Source: Aurantiochytrium sp. KH105
Taxonomy: Eukaryota > Sar > Bigyra > Thraustochytrida > Thraustochytriidae
Length of the DNA stretch: 64,000 nt
Reading direction: 5' to 3'
NCBI GenBank assembly: GCA_003116975.1
Contig: BGKB01000036.1
Span: 310,001-374,000, forward strand
Shown here: one piece after another, positions 2,991-42,193 of the stretch
Layout: each line of letters opens with the position of its first letter
Position numbering within the stretch: position 1 is the stretch's first letter
Made by a program: the position numbers and the translations under genes
The notes under the pieces: generated by a model
Database searches by the model: none
Told to the model about the DNA's origin: nothing
What the model saw: the letters and a program-made list of their open reading frames with translations, nothing else

Positions 2991-4138
2991 TCAAATGACC
3001 GGCTTCGTCTCCGCTTGGTATATGCGTTTAAAGAGAGCACCATCTCGAGCAAACATGATGCGGTACGCAATACTTCGCAAGGTCCGCTCCATGAAGGAAT
3101 CTGCTGTGCGGAGCTGGCCTGCGAACTTGGAATTCTTGATGATGCGCGATGTCACAGGCTCGCGAATTTTATAAAACTCTTGCAATGCCGCGTCAATCTG
3201 GGTCAAGTCCTCGGACAAAAGGCGGCCCAGACAGGCTGCGTCCTGAATGGCTTGATTTGCACCCTGACCCATGAAGGGCGTGGTCGCATGCGCAGCATCT
3301 CCCAGCAGCACGATGCGGTCATTCACCCACGAAACGGAGCGAGGCGGTGTGTGATAGATACCAAAATGCATTGCGCGCGAGGAAAATTTGGTGATTTCGC
3401 TCATCTTTTCACGAAGGGCTTCATCCGTTGTTGCCCACTCGTCGTCGGCAGGGGGTTCTGCACATCTGTAAGCGTAGGCAAATGTCCAGTCCCGGCTTGG
3501 GCCGCACTGAAAAGATAATTGCAAGTTGCCCTTGCCCACAGTCTCGGTAATAGCGCCCTCCTGAAAGCGAAAGTCTCCGTGTTTCTTGACTTCGTCATTC
3601 GAAATGACTCCGTAGTACATTGAAAGGCCCGAATACTCGCGATCCCACTCTTTGTCAAAATGTTCGCCGCGAATATGGCTCTTGATGCCGTCAGCTCCGA
3701 TCAGCAAGTCGAAGGGAATGTCAGATTCCTTTTCCGTGTGAAGCATACGGTTCTCCTTGTCAACCGAGACGACGCGCTGGCCGCACTCTACCAGACCGTC
3801 TGGCAAAGTTTTGGCCAGTGTGCCAGAGCCGGCGGGTCCCCCACGAGATCCTTTGCTGGAAAGCTCGCGAGCAACGTGCCATCCTCTTGCACGGTCCTGA
3901 ACAGCTTTGGCGTTGAGCTGATTTTGGAGAGCTCGTCGCTGAGCGCAGGGATCTGCCGAAGACACTGCAGCCCCCCGGAGAGCGAGAAGCCTGCGCCCAG
4001 CTGCGGCCGCAGCTCATGGACTGCCTCCAGGAGTCGAACATGGACGCGGTCTCCCAATCTGTGCACGAGTTCGTGCGCCGCAGCCAGGCCGCCCACGCCG
4101 GCGCCGGCGATGACCACGCGAAGGGGTTTTTGCATCAT
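2991..4138 (-). pseudogene. FAD-dependent monooxygenase, frameshifted tandem copy
   Basis: Homologous along its whole length to the intact copy at 4738-5907. The N-terminal half (frame ending at 3788) has the dinucleotide-binding motif VVIAGAGVGGLAAAHEL. The C-terminal half, in another frame, has DLLIGADGIKSHIR and the flavin-binding RIVLLGDAAHATTPFMGQG. Relative to the intact copy 28 bases are missing near 3820 (the segment encoding FMRDELQIL), shifting the frame and ending the first half about ten codons later. The start is inferred from the neighbour (MQKPLRV at 4135 or 4138). No GT-AG intron restores the frame. The rest is well conserved, so the break is recent, or is an assembly error. 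Confidence 0.75.
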
Positions 4139-4737: not shown

Positions 4738-5907
4738 TCACACGACCGGGCTGGTCTCAGCAGGAAAACGATACTTGAAGATGGCGCCTTCGTTGGCGAA
4801 CATGGCGCGATATGCAAGATGACGCACAGCTCGCTCAAAAATGTTGTCAGCGGTGCGAAGCTTGCCGGCAACCTTGGACGCAGCAATAATGCGCGAAGTC
4901 ACAGGTTCACGTATCTTGTAAAACTGCGCAAGCGCCGCATCAACTTCGCTCGGGTTCTCGGCCAGCAGACGCGCCAAGCATGTGGCATCTTGAATTGCTT
5001 GATTTGCACCCTGGCCCATGAATGGCGTCGTGGCGTGTGCGGCGTCACCCATGAGGACGACGCGGTCTTTGACCCATGACACGGACCGTGGAGGGGTGTG
5101 ATAAAGACCAAAATTCATCGCACGCGACGCGTACTTTGTGACTTCGTTTGTCTTTTCAAAAATGGCCTCGTCAGTAGCGGCCCACTCCCTTGCGTTTGGC
5201 GGTTGAGGAGATCGATAGCTGTACGAGAACGTCCACTCGCGCTTACTGCCACACGCAAAGGAGATTTGCGAGCTTCCCTTGCCCACTGTCTCTGTAATGG
5301 CGCCCTCTTGGAACCGAAAGTCCCCATATTGTTGAACTAAAGAGTCCGGGATCACACAGTAATAAATCGAAAGCCCCGAATACAGGCGGTCCCAGGACTT
5401 GTCAAAGAGCTCGCTTCGAATCTGGCTTTTAATGCCATCTGCTCCGATGAGCAGGTCGTAAGGAATCTCTTCTTTGCGCGTTAGGACCATGCGATGCTCT
5501 TGGTTTACAGAAACAACGCGCTGTCCACATTCGACCATGCCTTTTGGGAGCGACTTGTACAGAAGGATTTGCAGCTCATCGCGCATGAACTGGGCAAAGG
5601 CGGGTGGATCGCCAACGAGATCATGGGCGGAAAACGACGCTAGCGTCGTACCGTCTTCCCAAACCGTACGAAAGGTTGTTGGTTTGACGCTAATGTCATC
5701 GAGTCTATCTTTGATGGCTGGGATTTGGCGCAGACATTGCAGGCCGCCTGATAGAGAAAATCCTGCACCGAGCTTTGGTCGCAGCGCAGGTGCTGCCTCG
5801 AGAATTCGCACGTGCACACGGTCGCCCAGTCTGTGTAAAAGCTCGTGCGCCGCGACGAGGCCACCGACGCCTGCGCCCGCGATGACCACGCGCAGGGGTT
5901 TTTGCAT
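4738..5907 (-). CDS. FAD-dependent monooxygenase (salicylate hydroxylase / zeaxanthin epoxidase type)
   Basis: A 389-residue class A flavoprotein monooxygenase (FAD_binding_3 family), which uses NAD(P)H and O2 to hydroxylate or epoxidise small aromatic or isoprenoid substrates. Visible motifs: GxGxxG in VVIAGAGVGGLVAAHEL near the N-terminus, the DG motif DLLIGADGIKSQIR in the middle, and the GD motif RVVLMGDAAHATTPFMGQG near residue 290. The frame extends upstream to 5982, adding 25 mostly Glu residues translated from a CTT microsatellite; I start at MQKPLRV because the neighbouring copy aligns from there. No signal peptide or membrane anchor is evident. The substrate cannot be read from sequence. 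Confidence 0.8.
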   Translation of the reverse strand: MQKPLRVVIAGAGVGGLVAAHELLHRLGDRVHVRILEAAPALRPKLGAGFSLSGGLQCLRQIPAIKDRLDDISVKPTTFRTVWEDGTTLASFSAHDLVGDPPAFAQFMRDELQILLYKSLPKGMVECGQRVVSVNQEHRMVLTRKEEIPYDLLIGADGIKSQIRSELFDKSWDRLYSGLSIYYCVIPDSLVQQYGDFRFQEGAITETVGKGSSQISFACGSKREWTFSYSYRSPQPPNAREWAATDEAIFEKTNEVTKYASRAMNFGLYHTPPRSVSWVKDRVVLMGDAAHATTPFMGQGANQAIQDATCLARLLAENPSEVDAALAQFYKIREPVTSRIIAASKVAGKLRTADNIFERAVRHLAYRAMFANEGAIFKYRFPAETSPVV

Positions 5908-6835
5908 AGCGACTGCAGTCACTTCTTCTTCTTGTTCTTCTTCTTGTTCTTCTTCTTCTTCTTCTTGCAAGAGTGATCGCAAGCAGGCAGGCAGGCGGGC
6001 AGGCAGGCAGGCAGGTAGGCAGGTTTAGCCAAGCAAGTAAGCAAGCAAGTGAGAGCTTTCTCGCACGCACGCACGCACGCACGCGCGCACGGACGCACGC
6101 TTGCTCACCTAAAGTCGGAGCACGCGACACCACAATGTAGCCTCTGCCTCTGTTCTGAGCTGAGCGAAGCGACGCCGACCTTCTGTGCCGACGTTCCCGT
6201 CGCTCTCACCTCAAGCCCCCCCCCCCCTCTCTCCCTTCCGCCTCCGCCCCGCCCCACCCTCGCCGCCCTGGCCGCGCGCACGCCGCGCGCACGCGGTCCC
6301 GGCCGCGCCTGCTTGCCGCTTTACTTTCTTCTACACTCGTCCGCACCTACGGCGACCTACCCGAGGCGACGTAAGAGTGAAGAGGCACAAGCGGCTGCGA
6401 ATGACTCGCGTGTCCCAGACCTCGTAGAAGCCCAAGACGCGCGAAGGTGCTGCACGAGAGAGAGAGACGAAAAGCGCATGAGAGAAAGGGGGCGATCCCT
6501 TTCTCGTCAGCGCGAAATGCCAAAAATTCTACAGCATTCGACGAGTGGCTATGTAGCAGTAGCCGAAGATTTTGAGGCGAAAACTCTGTTGGGGCCCTCC
6601 ATACGTGGCTAAGATTACGATGAAATGAAGCAGACCAGGCTCTCTTCCGCCAATGTCTGTGAGAACATTCTCTTGACGTAGACCTTGACGGTCTACGTCC
6701 GCAGAGAGAAAATTTTGTTGTTGGCCATGGGGAGAAGATTAACAAACTCATTGCGATTACTATGATTGTTATGGCAGCAGCCACTCTTTCGCGCGGACGA
6801 TCCTTGCCAGCTGTGGCGAGCCACAATTACACGCG
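5908..6835. other. Divergent intergenic region, repeats and a perfect hairpin
   Basis: Region between the divergent monooxygenase and ABC transporter genes. It holds a CTT microsatellite (about 5921-5966), GCAGGCAG repeats (about 5988-6020), a (CGCA)n run (about 6062-6092), a C-rich/pyrimidine stretch (6216-6260) and a perfect inverted repeat at 6675-6699. The open frame at 6049-6612 is compositional and has no protein-like features. Promoters of both flanking genes should lie here. Confidence 0.5.
6675..6699. promoter_or_regulatory. Perfect 10-base inverted repeat with 5-base spacer
   Basis: Arms GACGTAGACC (6675-6684) and GGTCTACGTC (6690-6699) are exact reverse complements around TTGAC. 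Each arm carries an ACGT core with TGACGTA resembling bZIP/CRE half sites. It lies about 140 bases upstream of the ABC transporter start, so a dimeric transcription-factor site or an RNA hairpin in the 5' UTR are both possible. The function is inference. Confidence 0.4.
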
Positions 6836-9956: not shown

Positions 9957-12608
9957 ATGGCGCGCGGCGGGGCCGAGGGCGGCGCGGCGGCGCGCGGCGA
10001 GGGCGAGGGGCCCCCGGAGGCGCCCCCCGCGGCGGCGCGCGCGTCGAGGCGGCGGCACGTCGCGGAGCGGTCGAGGTCGCTGCTCAACATGCTGACGCCC
10101 GTGCTGCGCGCGCAGCGGGTCCGGCGCGAGCGCGAGGAGCTGCGCGAGGAGCTGGCGAGGGCGATCGGGGAGAACGCGGAGGACGAGGACGAGGAGTTTG
10201 TCGCGCACCGCGCCTCCGACGACTGGGACGAGCGCACCCAAGAGGTCGTGCGCGGGATCGACAACAGCGAGATCGTCAAGGAGCTGAGCCGCTTCGCGCT
10301 CAGCGTCGACGAGGACGGCCGGCTCGTCGTCGAGCCGAACCTGCGCAGCGAGGTGCGGGCCGCAGCCGCCAACCAGGAGCCCCGCGCCAGGGTGCTGCGG
10401 CTCACAAAGGTCACCGACACGAACCTCCCGCCGCTCCTCCTGCGCGACGTGGCGCTCTTTCTGCGTGATTGCCCGATGCTCATCAGGCTTCCCGACAACA
10501 CGCGCATCGAGGGCAGCCTCATCGTCGATCTTTGCCCGCGACTCAATTCTCTCGGCGAAGGCTTCGAGCTCCAGCCTGGGAAATGGTCCACGGACGCGCT
10601 CCTCCATCTGCGCAACGAGCTGCGCCATGCGCGGCCTCGCGCGTCGTGGGAGAATCTCCTCTGGGCCGGCGTCGACACCGTCAAGCGAGCACAGGCCCTT
10701 TCGGACAGACGCTGGTACCAAATCACCGCCCGGCGTCGCAGCACGCTGAGCGAAATCCCGCACGCGGCGCCCGGGTCCGCCGCCGCCGCTGCCAGCGCTG
10801 CCGTCGCCGAGGATCTTGAAGCAGAGCAGGACGATATCGCCGCGAGAACGCGAGGCTCCAGCATTGCACAAGTCGGTCTCGAAGCCGCTGTGCGAGCCGC
10901 TCGACCATTCGGTGCCGAGCCCTCCTTTCAGCGGACGCTTCCTGACATTGTCACTCCCGCGTGCGCGCTTCGTAAGCTTCCGTATGCTTCTGAAGGCTTT
11001 GCCGAGGTGGACTGCCGCAAGTGCCCGGCCCTTGTCGAGATTCCCATGGCGCTGCGAGTGCAGGGCGACTGCAACTTTCAATGGTGCTCCTCTCTGGCCC
11101 ACTTGCCTGACACGGTGGAGGTTGGCGGCAATCTGGACCTCTCAAGCTGCAAGTCACTTCAGGGTCTCCCGGACAAGATTGCAGTCGCTGGAGACTTGAC
11201 ACTCCGGCAGTCGACCGGCGTGCACGCCTTGCCCGAGGTGCTCGAGGTCGGCGGAGACCTCAAGTGCGGCGGTTTGCGGGGTCTCCGCACTCTCGGACGC
11301 CGTCTCATCGTCCATGGGAATCTGGACTGCAGCGCGCTGCGCTCCATCGAGGAGCTCCCGCAGACGCTGGTGGTTGAGCGTGATCTCAATTGCAATTCGT
11401 GCGTCAATCTGACGAGCCTTCCGGCCGATCTTGTCGTGGGAGGCGACGTGTACCTCGAGAGGTGTGAGGCCCTCGACTCGCTTCCTACAGAGATGCTCGG
11501 TTGGCAAGCCCGCGAGGATGGCGAGCCCCACGAAGTCTACCTCGGCAGCTCTGGGCTCGGAGTTTCGGCCCTCGAGTGGCTGCGCAACGTGGAGGCCCCG
11601 TTTTTGCGGTTCCACGTCTCGTTGCGCGCCAATCGCCAGAACGAAGAGACGGTGGACGTGCCGCCATTCGAGAGTTTTGCACAGGCCGTTGCGTTCTGGA
11701 GCACGTATGCGGCGGACGAGCACGGCGACCCGGTGTCTCCCGACTTTACAGCCGAAGATGTCAACGATGTGGTAGACGATGCAAGCAAACGTGGCGTGCT
11801 CGTCTTTCTCTCGCGCCTGCGAGGTGCAAAGGAATTTCTCTTGGCCGAGATGCGCCCTCGACTCGCCATGCGGGTTCTTGAGGTCCTTGGGATCCTCGTC
11901 AGTGACGAGGTGGCGCGCGAGGAGGTCATTCTTCGCATGGTCGATAGTACTGATGCTTGCGATGACAAACCAATTTGGGCTTTGAACCAAATGCAGTTGC
12001 TCGTAGAAACTGCGCGCGCGCGCGGAAGCGAATCGAGACTCCGGGCTCTTGCGCGCCGTGTGATGAATCTCCAGGTCGTGCACGAGCATGCCATGGCCAA
12101 GTGCAATTCGCTCGGCTTTGTCGACGACGTATGCGTGTATTTACGTTTTGAGATTGCTTTGCTCGAGGACCTCGACCTGCCCGTGTCTGCGCTGGCCATG
12201 CACTTTCCCAAGTTCATGGAAATCAAGGATCGCGAAATTGACGCTGCTCGTCAGCAGGCGCTTGCCATCAGTGAGGAGCAAGTCGATGCGTTTTTAGAAA
12301 CGTGGCCAGAGTGGCAGCGTTTTCGCCGCGAGTCTGTTGCGGCCGAAATTCGCTGGGAAGAGATCCCAGAGGCTCGTGGCGTTTCGCTGCGCCGGAGTTT
12401 GCGTGACCTCTTTGGTCAGAAAGTCGACGAACCCGTCATTTTCCGTGGCCGTCAATGGAGTCTTCCGGATCTTCTCCGTCATTGGGTCGCACATGGCGTC
12501 GATTTCAACAACGTTCCTATTTCCGAGGACGATCTCATTTCAGGCCTATCGCGCCCGAAAAACTCGCGCTCCTCAACTCGTCGCTTCTGGTCCTTTTACA
12601 TTGAGTGA
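9957..12608 (+). CDS. LRR protein with C-terminal NEL-type (IpaH/SspH-like) E3 ubiquitin ligase domain
   Basis: 883 residues from the first in-frame ATG (MARGGAEGG). Upstream frame has only a GTG and GAGCC-repeat sequence. Residues about 340-511 form leucine-rich repeats of about 22 residues with the pattern LPxxLxVxGDLxLxxCxxL (for example LPDKIAVAGDLTLRQSTGV). From about 560 the protein matches the NEL ligase fold of bacterial effectors: DACDDKPIWALNQM around Cys668 corresponds to the catalytic CxD motif (CDDR/CEDR followed by TWN.M in IpaH/SspH). The later segments FVDDVCVYLRFEIALLEDL and ALAMHFPKF follow the family pattern. Known NEL enzymes move ubiquitin through that Cys onto target lysines and come from bacterial pathogens and symbionts. 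The gene has this genome's GC-rich composition and a full-length frame, so it appears resident. Ligase activity is inferred from motifs. Confidence 0.8.
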   Translation: MARGGAEGGAAARGEGEGPPEAPPAAARASRRRHVAERSRSLLNMLTPVLRAQRVRREREELREELARAIGENAEDEDEEFVAHRASDDWDERTQEVVRGIDNSEIVKELSRFALSVDEDGRLVVEPNLRSEVRAAAANQEPRARVLRLTKVTDTNLPPLLLRDVALFLRDCPMLIRLPDNTRIEGSLIVDLCPRLNSLGEGFELQPGKWSTDALLHLRNELRHARPRASWENLLWAGVDTVKRAQALSDRRWYQITARRRSTLSEIPHAAPGSAAAAASAAVAEDLEAEQDDIAARTRGSSIAQVGLEAAVRAARPFGAEPSFQRTLPDIVTPACALRKLPYASEGFAEVDCRKCPALVEIPMALRVQGDCNFQWCSSLAHLPDTVEVGGNLDLSSCKSLQGLPDKIAVAGDLTLRQSTGVHALPEVLEVGGDLKCGGLRGLRTLGRRLIVHGNLDCSALRSIEELPQTLVVERDLNCNSCVNLTSLPADLVVGGDVYLERCEALDSLPTEMLGWQAREDGEPHEVYLGSSGLGVSALEWLRNVEAPFLRFHVSLRANRQNEETVDVPPFESFAQAVAFWSTYAADEHGDPVSPDFTAEDVNDVVDDASKRGVLVFLSRLRGAKEFLLAEMRPRLAMRVLEVLGILVSDEVAREEVILRMVDSTDACDDKPIWALNQMQLLVETARARGSESRLRALARRVMNLQVVHEHAMAKCNSLGFVDDVCVYLRFEIALLEDLDLPVSALAMHFPKFMEIKDREIDAARQQALAISEEQVDAFLETWPEWQRFRRESVAAEIRWEEIPEARGVSLRRSLRDLFGQKVDEPVIFRGRQWSLPDLLRHWVAHGVDFNNVPISEDDLISGLSRPKNSRSSTRRFWSFYIE

Positions 12609-13204
<596 letters not shown>

Positions 13205-32797: not shown

Positions 32798-35700
32798 ATG
32801 ACGTGGGTGAAGGCGGACGACGTGGCCTCGGCGGTCGAGGACATGGCCAAAGGAGAGACCAAGATCAGGTAGGTTGCTCTGCTGGAAGGTTCTGGTGATA
32901 CGTGTATATGGAGGCGCGAGAGCATCATCGACTCACGATGTCTGAACTTCGATTATGCGCTCCCAGCCTATTTGACAGGAATGCTGGTCCAGAGGCGACC
33001 AAGGAGCTCGCGGCGGCACTGGCAGAAAAACCCATGCTGCTCACTCTCGAGTACGTTGACGAACTGCAACTCCCATCATCTTTGCACGTTCGCTTGAAGC
33101 TAACGGGTCCGTTGATCTATCCATCCATCCTCTTGTACAACGTTAATGTTGTAGTCTTCGAGCCAACAGCGTCGGGGACGAGGGCGCAAAGGCTCTTGCC
33201 TTCGCCTTGAAGCAAAATGCTACGCTAACTTACTTAGAGTACGTGCCTACCACTGCTGGCAGCAGCAGCAAGAAATGTGAGTCGAAATGCTGACGTTTTT
33301 ATTTTGTTCTTGTTGCTTGTTGCGCAAACAAAGCCTTAGCAGCACGAACATTGGCGACGAAGGAGCGCGGGCACTTTCGCATGCGCTTCTTGCAAATAAC
33401 CACCTTCGCACGCTCTAGTACGTTTTTGACTCGGCTGATGGTTGTGTAGTCTGCACGACTGACATGACAAGCTTGATTCCGCAACATTACAGTCTGCAGA
33501 ATAATCTGATTTCAGATCTAGGCGCTGCAGCGCTAGCCGCGGCCCTTTTAGAAAATACTGCGTTGAAAGAACTCGAGTACGTGAGAAACGTTTTTCGTGC
33601 GTGCGCTCTTGGTCTTGCCGACTCACATGTTTGTTGCCTTTACAGTCTTCAGCACAACCGAGTTGGAAGTGCTGGCGCAGAGGCTCTGGCTGCGGTTATC
33701 GGCCACGACTCGCAACTCGAAAAGCTCGAGTACGTTTTCCTTGTTCTTCTTAAAATTTCCTGGTTTTTCTTTAGCTGGAAATATCGCGCAGCGAGAACGT
33801 GTCAAAGACTAACTTATCAGAGCAGTCTCGGAGGCAACCATGTTTCTGACGACGGAGCATGCGCCCTTGCGCGAGGACTCGAGGCCAACTCACATTTGCG
33901 TAAACTCAAGTAAGTCGACGAGCGAGCAAAGGAAAAGGGAACGTATTTTGGGCTGACGTGATGCTCTGCCTAGTCTTAGCCGAAACAACATTCACGTCGA
34001 GGGCAGCAGAGCCCTAGGAGAGGCTCTTGCACAGAACACGGGACTATGTGCTCTCGAGTACGTTTTCATGTGGTCGATTGCCAATCATCTCCACTGGACA
34101 GAAAGGGCACTGACAGATTGAGTGGCTTGATGACTTGACTTTTCTCTCTCGCGTTTGATCGTATATTAGTCTATGGGTCAATGAGATTGGCGACGAGGGC
34201 ACGGCGGCTCTGGCGAACGGCTTGAAAGCCAATTCAACCTTGCGAATCCTCGGGTACGTTCGAAGAACTTTAAGCGAAGCGCTCGAATTAAATGGCGTGC
34301 TAACTCACGTTCCCGGTACAGTCTTGCATACAACAAGATCGGCGACACGGGAGCCAAGGCCATGGCCGGCGCGCTGGCATGCAACTCGATCCTGCAAAAT
34401 CTTTCGTACGTTGGCGCACGCGATACACGGGGAAGACGAAACATATGCTCACTTTGAAAACACAAATCCTTCTCTTTGCACAGTCTTCGTAACAATGACA
34501 TTGGTGATCAAGGCGTCAGCGCTCTCGCCAAATCGTGCGAAAAGACTCGCTCGCTACGAAAACTAGAGTACGTTGCGCTGTATTGCAACCAAGAAAGGTT
34601 TGTGAAATCGTGTACTCACGCAAATTTGACATCGCAGTCTGGCCAGCAACTTCCGCATGACACTGCTCGATGCCGTGGACAAGATCAAGTTTCTTTTAGG
34701 AAAGAACAAAGCACGAGCAGGCCGTCTTCAACATTATGGTTCCACAGAAGATGATGCTCCATGGCTTGACGCTGTCCATGCGGTCATCTCACACGGCGAC
34801 GCCCATCCCTGGGGTCGAGCCAAACTTATGATTGTTGGCCGCGGCGCCGCAGGGAAGACTTCGACGGTTCGGTCTCTGCTGGGCCAATCGCCGATTCACG
34901 AACATCGATCCACCGAAGTTGCCGATGTTCATCGGACGCGGGCGCACGACTGGAGAGAAGTAGCGTCAGACCAAGGTGAATTTACCGCGCAGGTGCGTTT
35001 TGCTGCTGCTCGCCGTTTGCGCGAGCTTGCAGACATGTCTGATGCACAACAGCTCGATGCACCTTTCAAGGATGTGCCGTCGGCCCCGCCACCCCTGCCA
35101 TCGTCTTCGCAGGAGCTATCTGGCGTGGCTTCGGATCCCAAGCCTGCATTACATTTGGAGGCTTCTCCGCGACAAAAGGCGCTCCTCTCCTCGGAGGAGG
35201 TCGTTCGCAAATTTTCCATTACGGAAGACGAACAGCTACTACTTCAGAGCTCGATTTCATCAGAGACGCGCGTAAGCTTTACGATATGGGATTATGGCGG
35301 ACAGGAGGTGTTTTACGCTCTTCATCACATCTTCCTCACGGACAAAGGCCTCTACCTCGTCGTTTTTGACATGCGAGAGATTGTTGGAAAGGAGATCTTC
35401 AAGGACTCTCTTTCGGAAGAAGCCTATGGGAAACTCGCAACACAGGAGGAAGCCCTGAAGAGTCTACGTTTCTGGTTTGATAGCATCAGGATGCATGCGC
35501 CTGACGCTCCTGTGCTTCTTGTCGGCACGCATAAAGACCAAGTGCACGATCTTCGCCAAGTTAACCAGAAGCTTCTCGAGGCCAGTTGCCTTAAGAGGAC
35601 GCGAGGCACTCTGATACGGCCCGAGGGCGATTTGATCTTTGTCCCCGTTGACAACACAGACACGGATCCGAATCGAGCCGCAAGTCTTCGCACTCTCATT

Positions 35701-37246
35701 GCAGCGACTGCGATGGCACAGTCGTACGTGAGAAAAAGGGTTCCGCTTGCATGGCTCAAAGTCCACGAAGATCTCTTGAATAGCCACGCTCCGTACATGT
35801 CCCTTGAGGATATCGTTGACTTGGCCGCAGCATACGGTCTGCCACGCCGCGACGTCGACGCCATGCTCTTCTTTTTCCATGGTCTTGGTGTCGTTGTGCA
35901 CCTCCGGGGCTCGCAAACGCTGGAGCGTTTCATCGTCATCGATCCTCAGTGGCTTGTTGACAAACTAGCGCGCGTCATTGCCGATGACCTGCATGCGCAC
36001 AAGTTTTTCTATGACGCAGACCTCAAGGCCAGCGGCTTGATGCCAGACTTTGAGCGTCTGCGCGATCACTGCATTGCATCTCGGCGACTGCTTGCGTGGT
36101 TGTGGGGCAACGAGGCAGTTGACTTTTTGCTCGAATTCATGGACGCTAATATGCTTCTCTGTCCGTGGCACTTTGCACATGAAGCTGGCTCGAATGAAGA
36201 CTTTCTCGTCTCGGGTCTGTTGTCGACCTTTTCGCGAGAGGTCGACACCGAGGATTTTGAGCCCGGTCTCTCGTGTGAGCTCGACTTTTCCGAATTCTTT
36301 TTGCCGCGAGGGGTTTTTCATCGGCTGGTAGCACAGTGTGCAGAGTACGCGGCACGCCCAAGTGTGATTGGCGACGACGAGCCCATGGCCCCATTGCTCG
36401 GCAGTGAACAGGCTATGATGTCCTTCGGCATCAACAACTTTCTCCCCCCTCGTGAAAGAGAATGTCGTCCGGGTAAGTCTCGCCAGAGAGGCCGAGCGCC
36501 CAGCGATGGTGATCAAGCTGCTTGTGTCCATGTTCCGCGAGCAGGAAGAAACCGTCTTTCGTGGACTTCCTTGGGACCTTCTCCTCGAGAGCCCAACGTC
36601 GCGTGTGCTCGTCTCCAACGCAAAGATCACCAAGGCTCGAAGCGAAGGCAAGTTCCGCGCTCGTCTGCGAGGGCGTAACAGCAAAAGAGTGGCTACGGTG
36701 AGCGAGTTCGAGCCCTTTTTCGTCGAGCAGATTGGGGCTCTGGATACCGATGAGGATGGTCCCGCAGTGCCTCGCGCCAAGGCAGTGTCATCCCTTGGCC
36801 CGGACGAGGACACGCACGTGTTTTTGAGTCATGTGCAATCAACGGGCGGCGACCTTGCCGAGACGTTGCGGCTGAAGCTTGAGAATCGCGGCGTTAAGGT
36901 TTGGTTCGACCAGTCTCACAAAGACAAATTGAACCAGGAGGCCATGCTCGATGGCGTGCGACGCACGCGAACCTATGTTCTCGTTCTTACCGAGGGCATT
37001 TTCAAGAGCAAAGCAGTCAAAGCGGAATTGCGTTGTGCCTTGGAGGCCAAAAAGCCGATCGTCTTGGTGCACGAGCCGGACACCCACCGTCTCAGCTACA
37101 CGAGCTTTAGCGAGTACATCACTTCAACGCCAGACTTTTGCAAAGATCTCCTCATCGAGGAAGAGTCGCTCCCTGTGCGACGCAAGTGGTACGAGGAGGA
37201 CAGCTTCTTCCGTGAGCTCATTCGACGATGTGCGACCACTGTCTAG
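32798..37246 (+). CDS. LRR-Roc-COR-TIR protein, 12 exons, frameshift in last exon
   Basis: Exon 1 is 32798-32868 and the last exon 34638-37246; between them ten 84-base exons each encode one 28-residue LRR of the ribonuclease-inhibitor type (LDLRANSVGDEGAKALAFAL pattern). The long exon holds a Roc GTPase (P-loop VGRGAAGKTSTVRSLLG near 34835, switch WDYGGQEVFYALHHIF near 35286, GTHKD near 35523), a COR domain (DPQWLVDKLARVI) and a TIR domain (HVFLSHVQ near 36816, VKVWFDQS, catalytic-type Glu in VKAEL near 37017). The frame changes at a C6 tract (36444-36449); the paralogue at 38900 aligns across it, so one base is extra there. As written the protein ends at 36678 (983 residues) without TIR; read through it is 1172 residues. 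Roco proteins are dimeric GTPases; TIR domains often cleave NAD+. Confidence 0.8.
32967..34567 (+). repeat. Array of ten 84-base LRR exons, all phase 2
   Basis: Exons 32967-33050, 33155-33238, 33334-33417, 33493-33576, 33646-33729, 33826-33909, 33974-34057, 34170-34253, 34322-34405 and 34484-34567. Each is exactly 84 bases, begins with the third base of the codon before the repeat's first Leu, and ends two bases into the next. Donors are GTACGT-like except one GTAAGT; introns are 64-112 bases. The repeats are diverged in sequence, so the array is old. Confidence 0.9.
36444..36449 (+). other. C6 tract at the frame break of the LRR-Roco gene
   Basis: Six C in a row. Dropping one base joins FGINNF to LVKENVVRVSLAREAERP, which aligns with the paralogue's FGLSEF...NQIRLIMVPGTENP. 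Either a sequencing/assembly error, a real allele lacking TIR, or a slippery site. Confidence 0.7.
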
Positions 37247-37800: not shown

Positions 37801-38899
37801 TAGAAACAGAGCTTACAAACCGGCACGGATGGATGAGTCTTCATGCAAAGATGTGCCCTACTTGTTCGGCTTCGTAATCTTTAGAAAAAAAAGAGATCGA
37901 CTTTTCAAGCTTTCCTATCAAGGCTAGCTTGCTCGACGATTTCTTTTTCTACGACAAGCATGTTGAGATTGCCCCACAAATCGTAAAGATTCATGTCAAG
38001 CAAACGTGGTGAAATCCGAAGTAGTGCAGAGGAAGGAGCCTTATTGACGTTAAATCTTAAAAGATGACGGGGTCTGCGCACTGCCTCTTGATGTCGACCG
38101 CGCAGCTTCGGAGCCCGGATGATTTATTTCCTCGTGACCGGCATCGTTGATTGGAACCCGACCCGCGAGCGCTGCTCGCGTGCGAGTTGGTTTTCAAGAA
38201 ATGTTAAAATAAGACACTGTGAAATTATGGCAGAGCGAGAGATGCATGCTCCTTTTTTGTTGATAGCACCACGAGATCCAGGCCTACGTTCAGGTAACGT
38301 AGTTCCGTGAATGTTGATGTTATTCTTCGTTCACGTCAAGCCTGGGATTACTGTTTCGGCATCTCCAACATCGCGCGGTTGTTCGCTTGCAGTTCTGTGG
38401 CCGTGTGGATGATCATCAACGAATCGCAACCTGCGACTTCTCCAGGCCAGCCTGAGCCAGCCAGCGCGCGTGCACCGTCCGCGCGTGCCAGCGTGTGCAC
38501 ACGCTGGTCTTCCTCCTCGCCCAAACACCTAATCCCCCTTTCACCCCTGCGCGTGCGCGCGTTTGCGCGGCAGGCAGGCGCGGCAGGCAGGCAGGCAGGC
38601 GCGCAAGCAGCTCCCCCCGGACTACCCCCCTCCGCGCGGGCGCCGCCGCTACACGCTCCGTTCGCGCGCGCCCCACGCGGAGAACGCGCCAAGGCCGCAT
38701 CGCATCAGCAGCCAGCCCAGGCTCTCTCTCCCCTCGCTCCCATCTTTTCTTTCCTCGCCCGAGTCTTTCTCTCTCTCTCTCTGCTTTCTTTCTTGTCCCC
38801 CTCTCCGCCCCACCCGCTCGCTCGCGGCGCCTCTTCGCGTCGTCTGCCCGCCCGCCCTCCCGCCCGCCCGCCCGCGCTCCCCTCGCCGCCGTTGCCGCC

Positions 38900-41800
38900 A
38901 TGGGCCGCATCCAAGGCTACGTGCTCGGCGTCGCGCAGTCCGCCGACCTCGTGCTTGCTGCCAGCTGGGACGGCTTCCTGCGCGCCTGGAGCAAGGACGG
39001 CGCCCTCGTCTCGGAGATGAAGACGCGCAACGACAAAGAGGCCAACACCGTGGCCGTGCAGGGCAACCTCGCCGCCGTGGGGACTCAAGAAGGCGGCCTC
39101 TTCCTGATTGACCTGGCCACCGCCTCCGTCCTGCACGCGCTCCAGGGCCACACCGGCAATGTCTTGAGCGTCGTCTTCGACGGCAACGAGATCATCTCCG
39201 GATCCGAGGACAAGACCGTCCGCGTCTGGGACAAGATCAGCGGCCGAGAGACCTTGAGGATCGACGCCGGGGCGAGCGTGCGCAGCGTTGCCGCCCACGA
39301 GAAGCTGCTCGTGGCCGGGTTGAGCGGCTACACCGTGCGCGTCTTCGACCGGGTCAGCGGCGACCCACGCCACGTCCTCACGGAGGCGACACGCGTGGTC
39401 AACGCGGTCGCGATCGACGCGCAGCGCATGGTGAGCGGGTCCGACAACAAGGTGAGGGTCTACGCCGTGCCTTCCTTCCAGCTCCTGCACGTGCTCGAAG
39501 GACACACCAACACGGTGTTCTCTGTCGCGCTCGAGGGAGACCGCATCCTGAGCGGGTCCTGGGACAACACGGTCAGACTCTGGGACGCGCGCAGCGGAGA
39601 CGCGCTGCACGTCTTGCGGGGACACTCGGACTGGGTGCAGTCGGTCTCTCTCGTGGGGTCGAAGATCGTGAGCGGATCTTTCGACCAGAGCGTGCGCATC
39701 TGGGACGCGGAGACGGGCGCCTCGACGCGCGTGCTGGACGGCACGGAGGCCGTGCGGCCCATCGAGGGAGTGCTCGGCGCCACCGCGACTACTCCGGCGG
39801 CGGAGGAGGCGCTCAAGGCGGCGCTGGTGAACGGGGACCCCGCGGAGCTGGGCCGCTGCAAGCTCATGGTCGTCGGCCAGGCCGCCGCCGGCAAGACGTC
39901 CACGGTGCGCTCGCTGCTGGGCATGAAGCCCGTGGCGGAGCACATCTCGACGGTGGGCGTCGAGCTCAAGCGCACCGATGCAGAGTCCTGGAATGAGATC
40001 GAGGACCTTGACAGCGGATTTGAACGCCAGGCGTATCGCGTGGCGGCGCTGCGCATGCAGGAGCAAGCGGCGAGCAAGAAGCGGCAATCACTGCCTAAGC
40101 GCATCAGCCGCAAGGCGTCGGATCTCGTCTCAGGGCGCCGACGCTCTTCTGCGGCGCAACCCTTTGTTGCAGAGGTGCAGGTGGAACTGGTGCCTGAGGC
40201 CGAGGTGGCGCGGCGGTTCGACATTGCGGAGATCGAGACCATGGCCGGCAAGACGCAGTCAGGCCAGAAGATCTACTTTACGATTTGGGACTATGCGGGT
40301 CAGGAGGTCTTTTACGCGCTGCACCACATTTTCCTCACGCGTGAGGGCATCTTCATGCTCGTCTTTGACATGCAAGAACTCCTCACCAAGCAAGAGCAAG
40401 CTTTGGAGTATTTGTCCTTTTGGCTAAACTCCGTCAGGTTGCACGCGCCCAAGGCCCCCGTTCTTTTGGTTGGAACACACTACGACCACGCATCTAACAA
40501 CGGGAGTCTGCAGACAGTGGAAAGGACTCTGCGGGATGCCCTCGAAGCGCTGCGTGGTGTCAAGCTCGTCAAAAACCAAGCGCAAAAACTGAGCTTCTTT
40601 CCGATCGACAACATGAGCTCTGCGGCAGATCGTGCCGTCGAGCTACGCCGCGCTGTTGAAAAGTCCGCATCAAAGCTCGAGTCCATCTCGCAAAAGATCT
40701 CGCTGCGCTGGCTCAAGGTCATCGACGACCTCATGATGCTTGAATACGATCACGTGCCCTTCGCAACGGTACAGGAATTGGCGGACCAGTATCACGCTGG
40801 CGACCAAACAGACGAGCTTCTCAAGTTTTTCCACGAGCTCGGTATGCTCGTTCACCTGCGCGCCACCGACACCTTGCACGACAAGGTGGTCTTGAACCCG
40901 CAATGGCTCTTGGACAAGCTGGCACGAGTGATTGCGGACGAGATCCACGTGCAGGAGATTTACTTTGACGAAAGGCTTGCCGATCTCGAACTCGAGGACG
41001 ACTTTGTGCTCTTGCGTCGCAAGGGCATCGCTACACGCACTTTGCTCGATTTTCTATGGGATGGCGAAGAGGTCGGCTACCTCGAGGAGTTCATGCGCGA
41101 CACCATGCTCTCGTCCAACTGGAAGTTCCCAGAGAGGTCGCTGCCGAGACACCGCCGAAATGAGACACTTTACCTCGTGAGCAATTTGCTGAAGAACTCG
41201 AGGGATAGCGGTATACAACGCGACATTGCCAGTCTCTCGAGTGGGTTAACCTGCGTGCTGGACTTTTCCGAGTTCTATCTCCCTGACGGCGTCTTTGCGC
41301 GTCTTCTTTCACTATGTGCCGAGCGTAGTGGCGAGTCGAACACGCGTGTGGGCGCTCCACGACTTACCGGCCAGCAAGCCATTATTCGTTTTGGCTTGTC
41401 CGAATTCGCACTCGAGGAAACGGGCAATCAGATTCGCCTCATCATGGTGCCTGGAACGGAAAACCCTGCCAGCACGCTGAAGACGCTCATCAGCATGTTT
41501 CGCGGGGCTCGTGACGCCGTTTTCAAGGACCTGCCCTGGCAGCTGCATTTGCAGTCGCCCCAAAACCCGCTTGTTCGCGTCGAGTACGATACTTTGGTCG
41601 AGTCTCGCGATGCGAATGCTGTCGCCGTTGCGTCAGTGGGCCTTGGCAATGCTCGCGTCGCTGACTTTGAACCGTTTTTCACGGACGGTTCACTTACAGA
41701 AGACGAGCACGATACGGGTCATGTGGAGCTGGCGTCCGTTCGACAGCTGGGTGCTGGTCTCGAATACCACGTCTTTCTGAGTCACCGACAGAAGGAAGCC

Positions 41801-42193
41801 GGCGACGCATGCAACCTCATGGCGGAGAAACTGAAGAATCGAGGTCTCAAGGTCTGGCTCGATCAGGAGAGCCAGGGCAATCTGGCAGAGGACGCTATGC
41901 GTCGCGGCATTCGTGCGTCAAAGTGCTATCTTCTTTTCCTCTCCAAGACCGTTTTTGAGGGCGCCGTGCGCATGGAGCTGGAAACAGCACTGCAGGAAGA
42001 AAAGCCTGTGTTGCTCGTGCACGAGAGCGATCCGGATCGATTCGGCTTCGATACTATTTCCAATTACATCAAGTCTGCCCCGGACGCTGCCAAACATCTC
42101 TTTCGCGAGACGGAGTCCATGCCGTTTCAGCGTCGCCATTACCTGGCTGAAGCTTTTTATGAAGAACTTATTGCGCGCATTGATGCGTGTTAA
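38900..42193 (+). CDS. WD40-Roc-COR-TIR protein (1097 aa)
   Basis: Intronless. Start at ATG 38900 (MGRIQGYVLG); upstream frame is low-complexity. Residues about 1-290 form a WD40 propeller (for example VLHALQGHTGNVLSVVFDG, SGSEDKTVRVWDK). Then Roc: P-loop VGQAAAGKTSTVRSLLG (about 324), switch WDYAGQEVFYALHHIF (about 463), VGTHYDH (about 523). Then COR (NPQWLLDKLARVIADE) and a C-terminal TIR (HVFLSHRQKEAG about 956, VWLDQESQG, and VRMELETAL with the catalytic-type Glu about 1027). The Roc-COR-TIR part is a clear paralogue of the gene upstream; only the sensor domain differs. Architecture suggests ligand sensing by the propeller, GTP switching and a TIR output, probably NAD+ cleavage or TIR assembly. 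Function is inferred. Confidence 0.88.
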   Translation: MGRIQGYVLGVAQSADLVLAASWDGFLRAWSKDGALVSEMKTRNDKEANTVAVQGNLAAVGTQEGGLFLIDLATASVLHALQGHTGNVLSVVFDGNEIISGSEDKTVRVWDKISGRETLRIDAGASVRSVAAHEKLLVAGLSGYTVRVFDRVSGDPRHVLTEATRVVNAVAIDAQRMVSGSDNKVRVYAVPSFQLLHVLEGHTNTVFSVALEGDRILSGSWDNTVRLWDARSGDALHVLRGHSDWVQSVSLVGSKIVSGSFDQSVRIWDAETGASTRVLDGTEAVRPIEGVLGATATTPAAEEALKAALVNGDPAELGRCKLMVVGQAAAGKTSTVRSLLGMKPVAEHISTVGVELKRTDAESWNEIEDLDSGFERQAYRVAALRMQEQAASKKRQSLPKRISRKASDLVSGRRRSSAAQPFVAEVQVELVPEAEVARRFDIAEIETMAGKTQSGQKIYFTIWDYAGQEVFYALHHIFLTREGIFMLVFDMQELLTKQEQALEYLSFWLNSVRLHAPKAPVLLVGTHYDHASNNGSLQTVERTLRDALEALRGVKLVKNQAQKLSFFPIDNMSSAADRAVELRRAVEKSASKLESISQKISLRWLKVIDDLMMLEYDHVPFATVQELADQYHAGDQTDELLKFFHELGMLVHLRATDTLHDKVVLNPQWLLDKLARVIADEIHVQEIYFDERLADLELEDDFVLLRRKGIATRTLLDFLWDGEEVGYLEEFMRDTMLSSNWKFPERSLPRHRRNETLYLVSNLLKNSRDSGIQRDIASLSSGLTCVLDFSEFYLPDGVFARLLSLCAERSGESNTRVGAPRLTGQQAIIRFGLSEFALEETGNQIRLIMVPGTENPASTLKTLISMFRGARDAVFKDLPWQLHLQSPQNPLVRVEYDTLVESRDANAVAVASVGLGNARVADFEPFFTDGSLTEDEHDTGHVELASVRQLGAGLEYHVFLSHRQKEAGDACNLMAEKLKNRGLKVWLDQESQGNLAEDAMRRGIRASKCYLLFLSKTVFEGAVRMELETALQEEKPVLLVHESDPDRFGFDTISNYIKSAPDAAKHLFRETESMPFQRRHYLAEAFYEELIARIDAC

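Follow-up and report, generated by a model that had tools for sequence, protein, structure and literature searches.

Bacterial NEL ligases, among them IpaH, SspH1/2, SlrP and the rhizobial NopM, share one layout: leucine-rich repeats (LRRs), then a NEL domain near the C-terminus. Published accounts present this ligase type as something delivered by bacteria into the cells of their hosts. A 2022 review covers their mechanism, including the roles of the catalytic cysteine, the aspartate of the CxD motif and a second aspartate; in the sections drawn on here, it describes the family as bacterial and specific to Gram-negative bacteria (PMC9320238). By analogy, passage of ubiquitin through a catalytic cysteine thioester may be likened to the relay of HECT E3 ligases.

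No report of a eukaryotic NEL ligase family was found in the open-access literature, including text searches for PF14496 and IPR029487; unremarked InterPro entries may exist. The PF14496/IPR029487 accession is listed in the methods only in the accessible parts of one paper (PMC7029713), and the corresponding parts of another deal with bacterial effectors (PMC6557245). NEL similarity has been claimed in a eukaryote, Klebsormidium, where the ODAL region with LRR motifs in plant NLR-like genes is called NEL-homologous; the portions of that paper drawn on here describe no ligase family bearing a CxD motif (PMC7145615).

The window analysed here, a stretch of 64,000 nucleotides from the protist Aurantiochytrium sp. 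KH105, contains an LRR-NEL gene (Table 1). Its sequence and those of its paralogs make it quite probable that the product is an endogenous NEL-type E3 ubiquitin ligase, one member of an old HECT-like thioester family of 16 genes. As far as the literature searched shows, the catalytic domain is known; its owner, its set of modules and its tail are new.

A NEL domain in a protist LRR protein

Table 1. Parts of the LRR-NEL gene (window positions) and the frame of its armadillo-type paralog (positions in locus L007)
Feature	Position	Strand	Remark
LRR-NEL gene	9957..12608	+	single uninterrupted ATG-to-stop frame, 883 aa plus stop
N-terminal region, residues 1-340	9957..10976	+	without confident Pfam domain
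Leucine-rich repeats, residues 341-508	10977..11480	+	21-residue units of the form LPxxLxVxGxLxLxxCxxLxx
NEL E3 ligase domain (PF14496), residues 609-795	11781..12341	+	predicted from Pfam and profile comparisons
CxD catalytic motif, Cys668-Asp669-Asp670	11958..11966	+	read in frame
Asp723, aligned with a near-invariant Asp of bacterial NELs	12123..12125	+	alignment with bacterial NELs
C-terminal tail, residues 796-883	12342..12605	+	common to paralogs
Armadillo-NEL frame	L007 1515-5024	+	allele L011; front end resembles a nuclear-import adaptor

A first-pass annotation, made from the letters of the DNA, had seen the C-terminal ligase pattern of IpaH/SspH/SlrP in this protein, and had proposed a search with the Pfam NEL profile. 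That search scores 75.2 bits (E 6.1e-21), the family cut-off being 24. NEL and DUF7162 are the only Pfam entries returned for the window protein, the latter at residues 243-304 with a score below its family cut-off; the same search gives no match to the HECT profile.

Solved structures lead to the same family. The window protein, searched as a single sequence, matches 15 distinct sequences, of which 12 are NEL effectors, the best at 2e-8, and the other three align with the LRR part. A family profile built from 16 rows (window residues 534-883 and the corresponding part of the 15 paralogs described below) matches 12 distinct sequences in the PDB at E 1.1e-28 to 1.7e-23, all named IpaH, SspH, SlrP or invasion plasmid antigen. 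In a profile-profile comparison with 24 bacterial NELs (one further row, L060, was omitted for its long branch), the family aligns over 186 columns with 99.4% probability and E 1.8e-21, CxD on CxD. Together, these comparisons confirm that the frame encodes a predicted NEL-type ligase domain in an LRR protein.

The LRRs precede the NEL domain, as the first-pass annotation had described. Laid out as repeats, they comprise seven clear 21-residue copies starting at residue 362 and a degenerate copy before these; the pattern LPxxLxVxGxLxLxxC was compared with the LPX-type LRR of IpaH/SspH effectors. The other haplotype agrees with the start codon: there, the stop-to-stop frame begins two codons ahead of that methionine.

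Active site and C-terminal tail

Two of the motifs noted at first reading, Cys668-Asp-Asp and FVDxxxVYLxF, are present in the frame, the second as F721-V-D723-D-V-C-V-Y-L; the presumed WNxM-like helix reads LNQM. When the 16 genes are aligned, each represented by a single copy, 19 columns are invariant. These include Cys668 and Asp670, and no other cysteine. The cysteine and second aspartate of CxD are kept in 16 of 16 eukaryotic genes and in all 25 bacterial NELs that were aligned (out of 33 loci, L033-L065). In the column of Asp723, 15 of the 16 eukaryotic rows have aspartate, the exception being paralog N13, with glutamate; among the 25 bacterial rows, 22 have it. From its place in these sequences, Asp723 is probably the second catalytic aspartate; its spacing, rather than an alignment to IpaH9.8, suggests equivalence to Asp397 of that enzyme.

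Many more positions are shared with the 25 bacterial rows, yet the two groups are distant: 18% of residues are identical when the first rows of the profile alignment are compared. The eukaryotic rows carry their own extended motif, DxCxDKPxWALNQM, and sit beyond a long stem in the tree. The motif and the stem would suit a NEL fold kept for some other role, whether transfer of another ubiquitin-like protein, hydrolysis of E2~ubiquitin, or binding only. Such a role seems improbable given the invariance of CxD across both groups, and given that a bacterial NEL depends on the CxD aspartate to transfer ubiquitin to lysine, according to the review sections cited above (PMC9320238). A ubiquitin ligase remains the preferred reading.

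The profile-profile alignment stops ahead of the C-terminal tail, which is shared by the eukaryotic paralogs and finds no match in the bacterial NELs compared. Its consensus includes a DPV-like stretch and W-SLxDLLxHWVxTGxD, with an invariant tryptophan and glycine. The tail may have a docking or regulatory function specific to this lineage.

By eye, DPV...W-SLxDLLxHWVxTG resembles half a U-box, which raised the thought of a U-box-like docking role; this was set aside as no more than an idea because profile tests were negative or too weak. The Pfam U-box was found in none of the 16 tails (matches were requested up to E 10, of which HMMER drops most above 0.1), and hhalign of the tail against three U-boxes gave a probability of 2.3% and P 0.021, in the register seen by eye. 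Two further Pfam families each hit a single tail (E 0.045 and 0.24), and the tail profile has two weak matches in the PDB, both viral polymerase chains (E 0.26 and 0.27).

Sixteen genes with exchangeable front ends

The window gene had been presented as a single gene, which understates the case. A PF14496 search of its own 76-Mb genome scored 33 candidates and returned 32 places, every one over the Pfam cut-off and free of inner stops; none of 14 control genomes matched. Pairwise comparison of the NEL parts yields 16 pairs at 97-100% identity, with the nearest other gene at 43-75%. The natural reading of these sequences is 16 genes on two haplotypes, the window gene being one of 16 paralogs that each occur twice in the assembly. 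The window locus, on contig C36, and its allele on contig C17 are 95.2% identical in DNA over 9736 alignment columns, neighbours included.

NEL is a sizeable class in this genome: 32 places, compared with 44 for HECT and 11 for the U-box. (There are also 49 places for the E2 family UQ_con.) Most of the NEL, HECT and U-box places come in haplotype pairs. The HECT frames are separate from the NEL genes, a further difference from HECT ligases besides the missing HECT match in the window protein.

With a profile built from the seven clear repeats of the window protein, LRRs are detected N-terminal to NEL in 15 of the 16 genes at E 7.4e-5 or better, a range that includes the window's own row; the best of five shuffles per gene reached 0.06. 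The profile match of N03 is weak, and Pfam gives LRR_1 and LRR_6 for this gene. (The Pfam search took a single copy per gene; in N03, N08, N22 and N29 the frame runs past the start of the fetched stretch, and their N-termini are incomplete.) Two LRR-carrying genes, N03 and N16, also contain a SPRY domain according to Pfam, and SPRY, LRR and NEL lie in one frame at L003 3-5069 (+) and L016 185-5764 (+). Animal TRIM ligases also use SPRY as a substrate module.

The sole gene without LRRs, N07, has importin-alpha-like armadillo repeats in their place. These repeats match a designed repeat protein (2e-55) and importin alpha-7 (7.1e-27) in the PDB; Pfam finds one Arm repeat just over its cut-off in N07 and under the cut-off in the allele. 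Judged by domain composition, genes that join SPRY or importin-alpha-like repeats to NEL in a single frame would have been built inside a eukaryote.

Two arrangements among the paralogs may be mentioned. At L001 1181-7301, N26 (-) and N01 (+) are arranged head to head; about 0.5 kb separates the two stop-to-stop frames, and the genes perhaps share a promoter. Both belong with N05 in one clade (99/97); N01/N26 is a probable local duplication. Another NEL gene lies at a contig start in both haplotypes, on C4 and C55. Its frames, L005:181-3918 and L006:196-3954, end about 0.2 kb from that start, so that a telomere is perhaps nearby.

A resident of the genome

The first-pass annotation placed the gene in a eukaryotic chromosome with eukaryotic neighbours, and named bacterial contamination as the case that would overturn this. 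The neighbours in the window include a C54 peptidase (ATG4 family), CFAP97, PARP, a RING/Di19 protein and AAA ATPases, and the placement is borne out by neighbours of eukaryotic type (the C54 peptidase, CFAP97, PARP and others) together with the presence of the locus in two haplotypes. Contamination or misassembly, in favour of which nothing was found, has next to no probability: the same gene lies in the same context on C36 and C17 among neighbours of eukaryotic type, and its paralogs carry in-frame SPRY and armadillo fusions.

Codon use is host-like. The window gene correlates with the mean of 16 other window frames at r = 0.94, within the range of those frames themselves (0.72 to 0.95); 25 bacterial NEL frames range over 0.63-0.88. 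GC content is 0.651 in the bin at 10001-12000, near the top of the window range, and 0.544 in the next bin.

The product is a NEL-domain protein and not a type III effector of the IpaH/SspH type, because it is encoded in a eukaryotic genome, on two haplotypes, with native fusions among its paralogs. Further differences from the bacterial enzymes are its presumed use by the eukaryote that encodes it, the 21-residue, cysteine-bearing LRRs of the window gene, the protist motif, the extra conserved tail, and a set of 16 genes with SPRY and armadillo versions.

Selection between alleles

Comparison of the paired alleles shows purifying selection on the NEL domain. Over the NEL part of the 16 pairs there are 47 nonsynonymous and 177 synonymous differences (pN/pS 0.08), compared with pN/pS 0.26 for the N-terminal part and 0.24 for the part after NEL; these counts use stop-to-stop frames and may include some untranslated codons. 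For the window gene, counted from its ATG, the differences are 6 nonsynonymous and 48 synonymous, and pN/pS is 0.04. All neighbouring frames compared lie above this value: an ABC transporter at 0.33 (part of the frame), AAA-a at 0.19 and AAA-b at 0.08. The window gene is maintained, not diversifying. Purifying selection on an intact active site suggests that the cell uses these enzymes itself.

These numbers bear on an idea raised at first reading: that the gene serves defence or sensing. LRR-NEL proteins would then be receptors or ligases that recognise microbes or microbial proteins and tag these for degradation. The different front ends (LRR, SPRY, armadillo) attached to a common catalytic domain do look like recognition modules, the N-terminal part is more variable in some paralogs (66 nonsynonymous and 38 synonymous differences in N07, 91 and 63 in N05), and a WD40-Roc-COR-TIR gene lies in the same window. 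However, the few nonsynonymous differences of the window gene, counted across the whole protein, are the opposite of what an arms-race receptor would display, and even the N-terminal ratio over the 16 pairs is well under 1. Defence is therefore unlikely, and for the window gene itself the idea finds no support. Because its alleles hardly vary, the enzyme encoded there most likely acts on a conserved cellular protein.

Phylogeny and origin

The 16 eukaryotic NELs were placed with 25 bacterial ones in an unrooted maximum-likelihood tree, computed with a program warning of long branches. A single branch separates all eukaryotic sequences from the bacterial ones; its support is 100/100, and it recurs in 100% of 200 bootstrap trees. 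The eukaryotic stem is about 2 changes per site long, and the radiation beyond it is largely unresolved. The split persists in quick trees without L060 and without three short-type bacterial rows; in the tree without L060, midpoint rooting divides the eukaryotic rows from the 24 bacterial ones. This pattern fits one origin, followed by what would have been early duplication.

Phylogeny with bacterial NELs had been proposed as a check on acquisition from bacteria. The tree does set the eukaryotic genes apart; as it has no root, transfer from bacteria to eukaryotes, transfer in the reverse direction and an older shared source are not distinguishable, and acquisition from bacteria does not follow from it. 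(In the first tree, L040, L041 and L048 joined the eukaryotic rows at 99/97; in view of the long-branch warning, no donor is claimed.) One form of acquisition can be judged on other grounds: a recent transfer from a bacterium, now decaying or selectively neutral. The NELs of the review are all bacterial in the sections cited (PMC9320238), as such a transfer would have it. It is nevertheless very improbable in the face of 16 diverged paralogs on one side of a long branch, host-like codon use and strong purifying selection.

Relatives were also sought elsewhere. Patterns of the eukaryotic motif, which are insensitive, gave 7 matches and no relatives in IMG/VR, and 85 matches with 2 relatives, both from Pseudomonas fluorescens, in a collection of genome contigs. 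Of 398 genomes from the same phylum that were searched with the NEL profile, 9 contain NELs, including G001 (the genome of L031). Given what the profile search found and how insensitive the pattern scans are, the viral negative is weak.

A more radical proposal is that NEL is native to at least one eukaryotic lineage, forming a further class of thioester E3 with swappable front ends from which the bacterial effectors descend. Little probability attaches to it at present. If true, a eukaryotic source would explain how bacteria without ubiquitin come to own a ubiquitin ligase. Whether NEL arose in bacteria or in eukaryotes becomes testable by sampling protist genomes.

Proposed function

The preferred reading, an endogenous ligase, suggests the following scheme. 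If it works as its bacterial homologues do, Cys668 would receive ubiquitin as a thioester from an E2~ubiquitin conjugate of the cell itself (transthiolation), in an active site set up, presumably, by Asp670 and Asp723. The LRR domain would hold a substrate protein, and a lysine of that protein would then accept the ubiquitin. By analogy with the bacterial enzymes, the LRR domain may also keep the enzyme inactive until substrate binds.

A conserved eukaryotic NEL family breaks the rule, as worded in the review sections cited, that NELs belong to Gram-negative bacteria only (PMC9320238). Moreover, the protist family offers a place to study NEL enzymes serving the cell that makes them.

Other features of the window and genome

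A TCAA microsatellite lies right after the NEL gene, at about 12700-12960 of the window, and can be aligned between the haplotypes in several registers. In the genome, fragments resembling the polyunsaturated fatty acid synthase PfaA score 930 bits, and the family cut-off is 1010. They may point to a thraustochytrid, although the profile is matched in 11 of the 14 control genomes too, never above the cut-off.

Upstream of the NEL gene, FAD_binding_3 matches lie at 2994-4013 (-) and 4741-6024 (-), that of the first frame limited to positions 137-348 of the 349-position profile. Downstream, a single 1245-aa frame at 38456-42190 (+) contains a WD40 propeller and a Roc-COR GTPase, with a TIR domain at the C-terminus; such an architecture resembles those of signalling or immune proteins. 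A second Roc-COR frame is found at 34630-36675.
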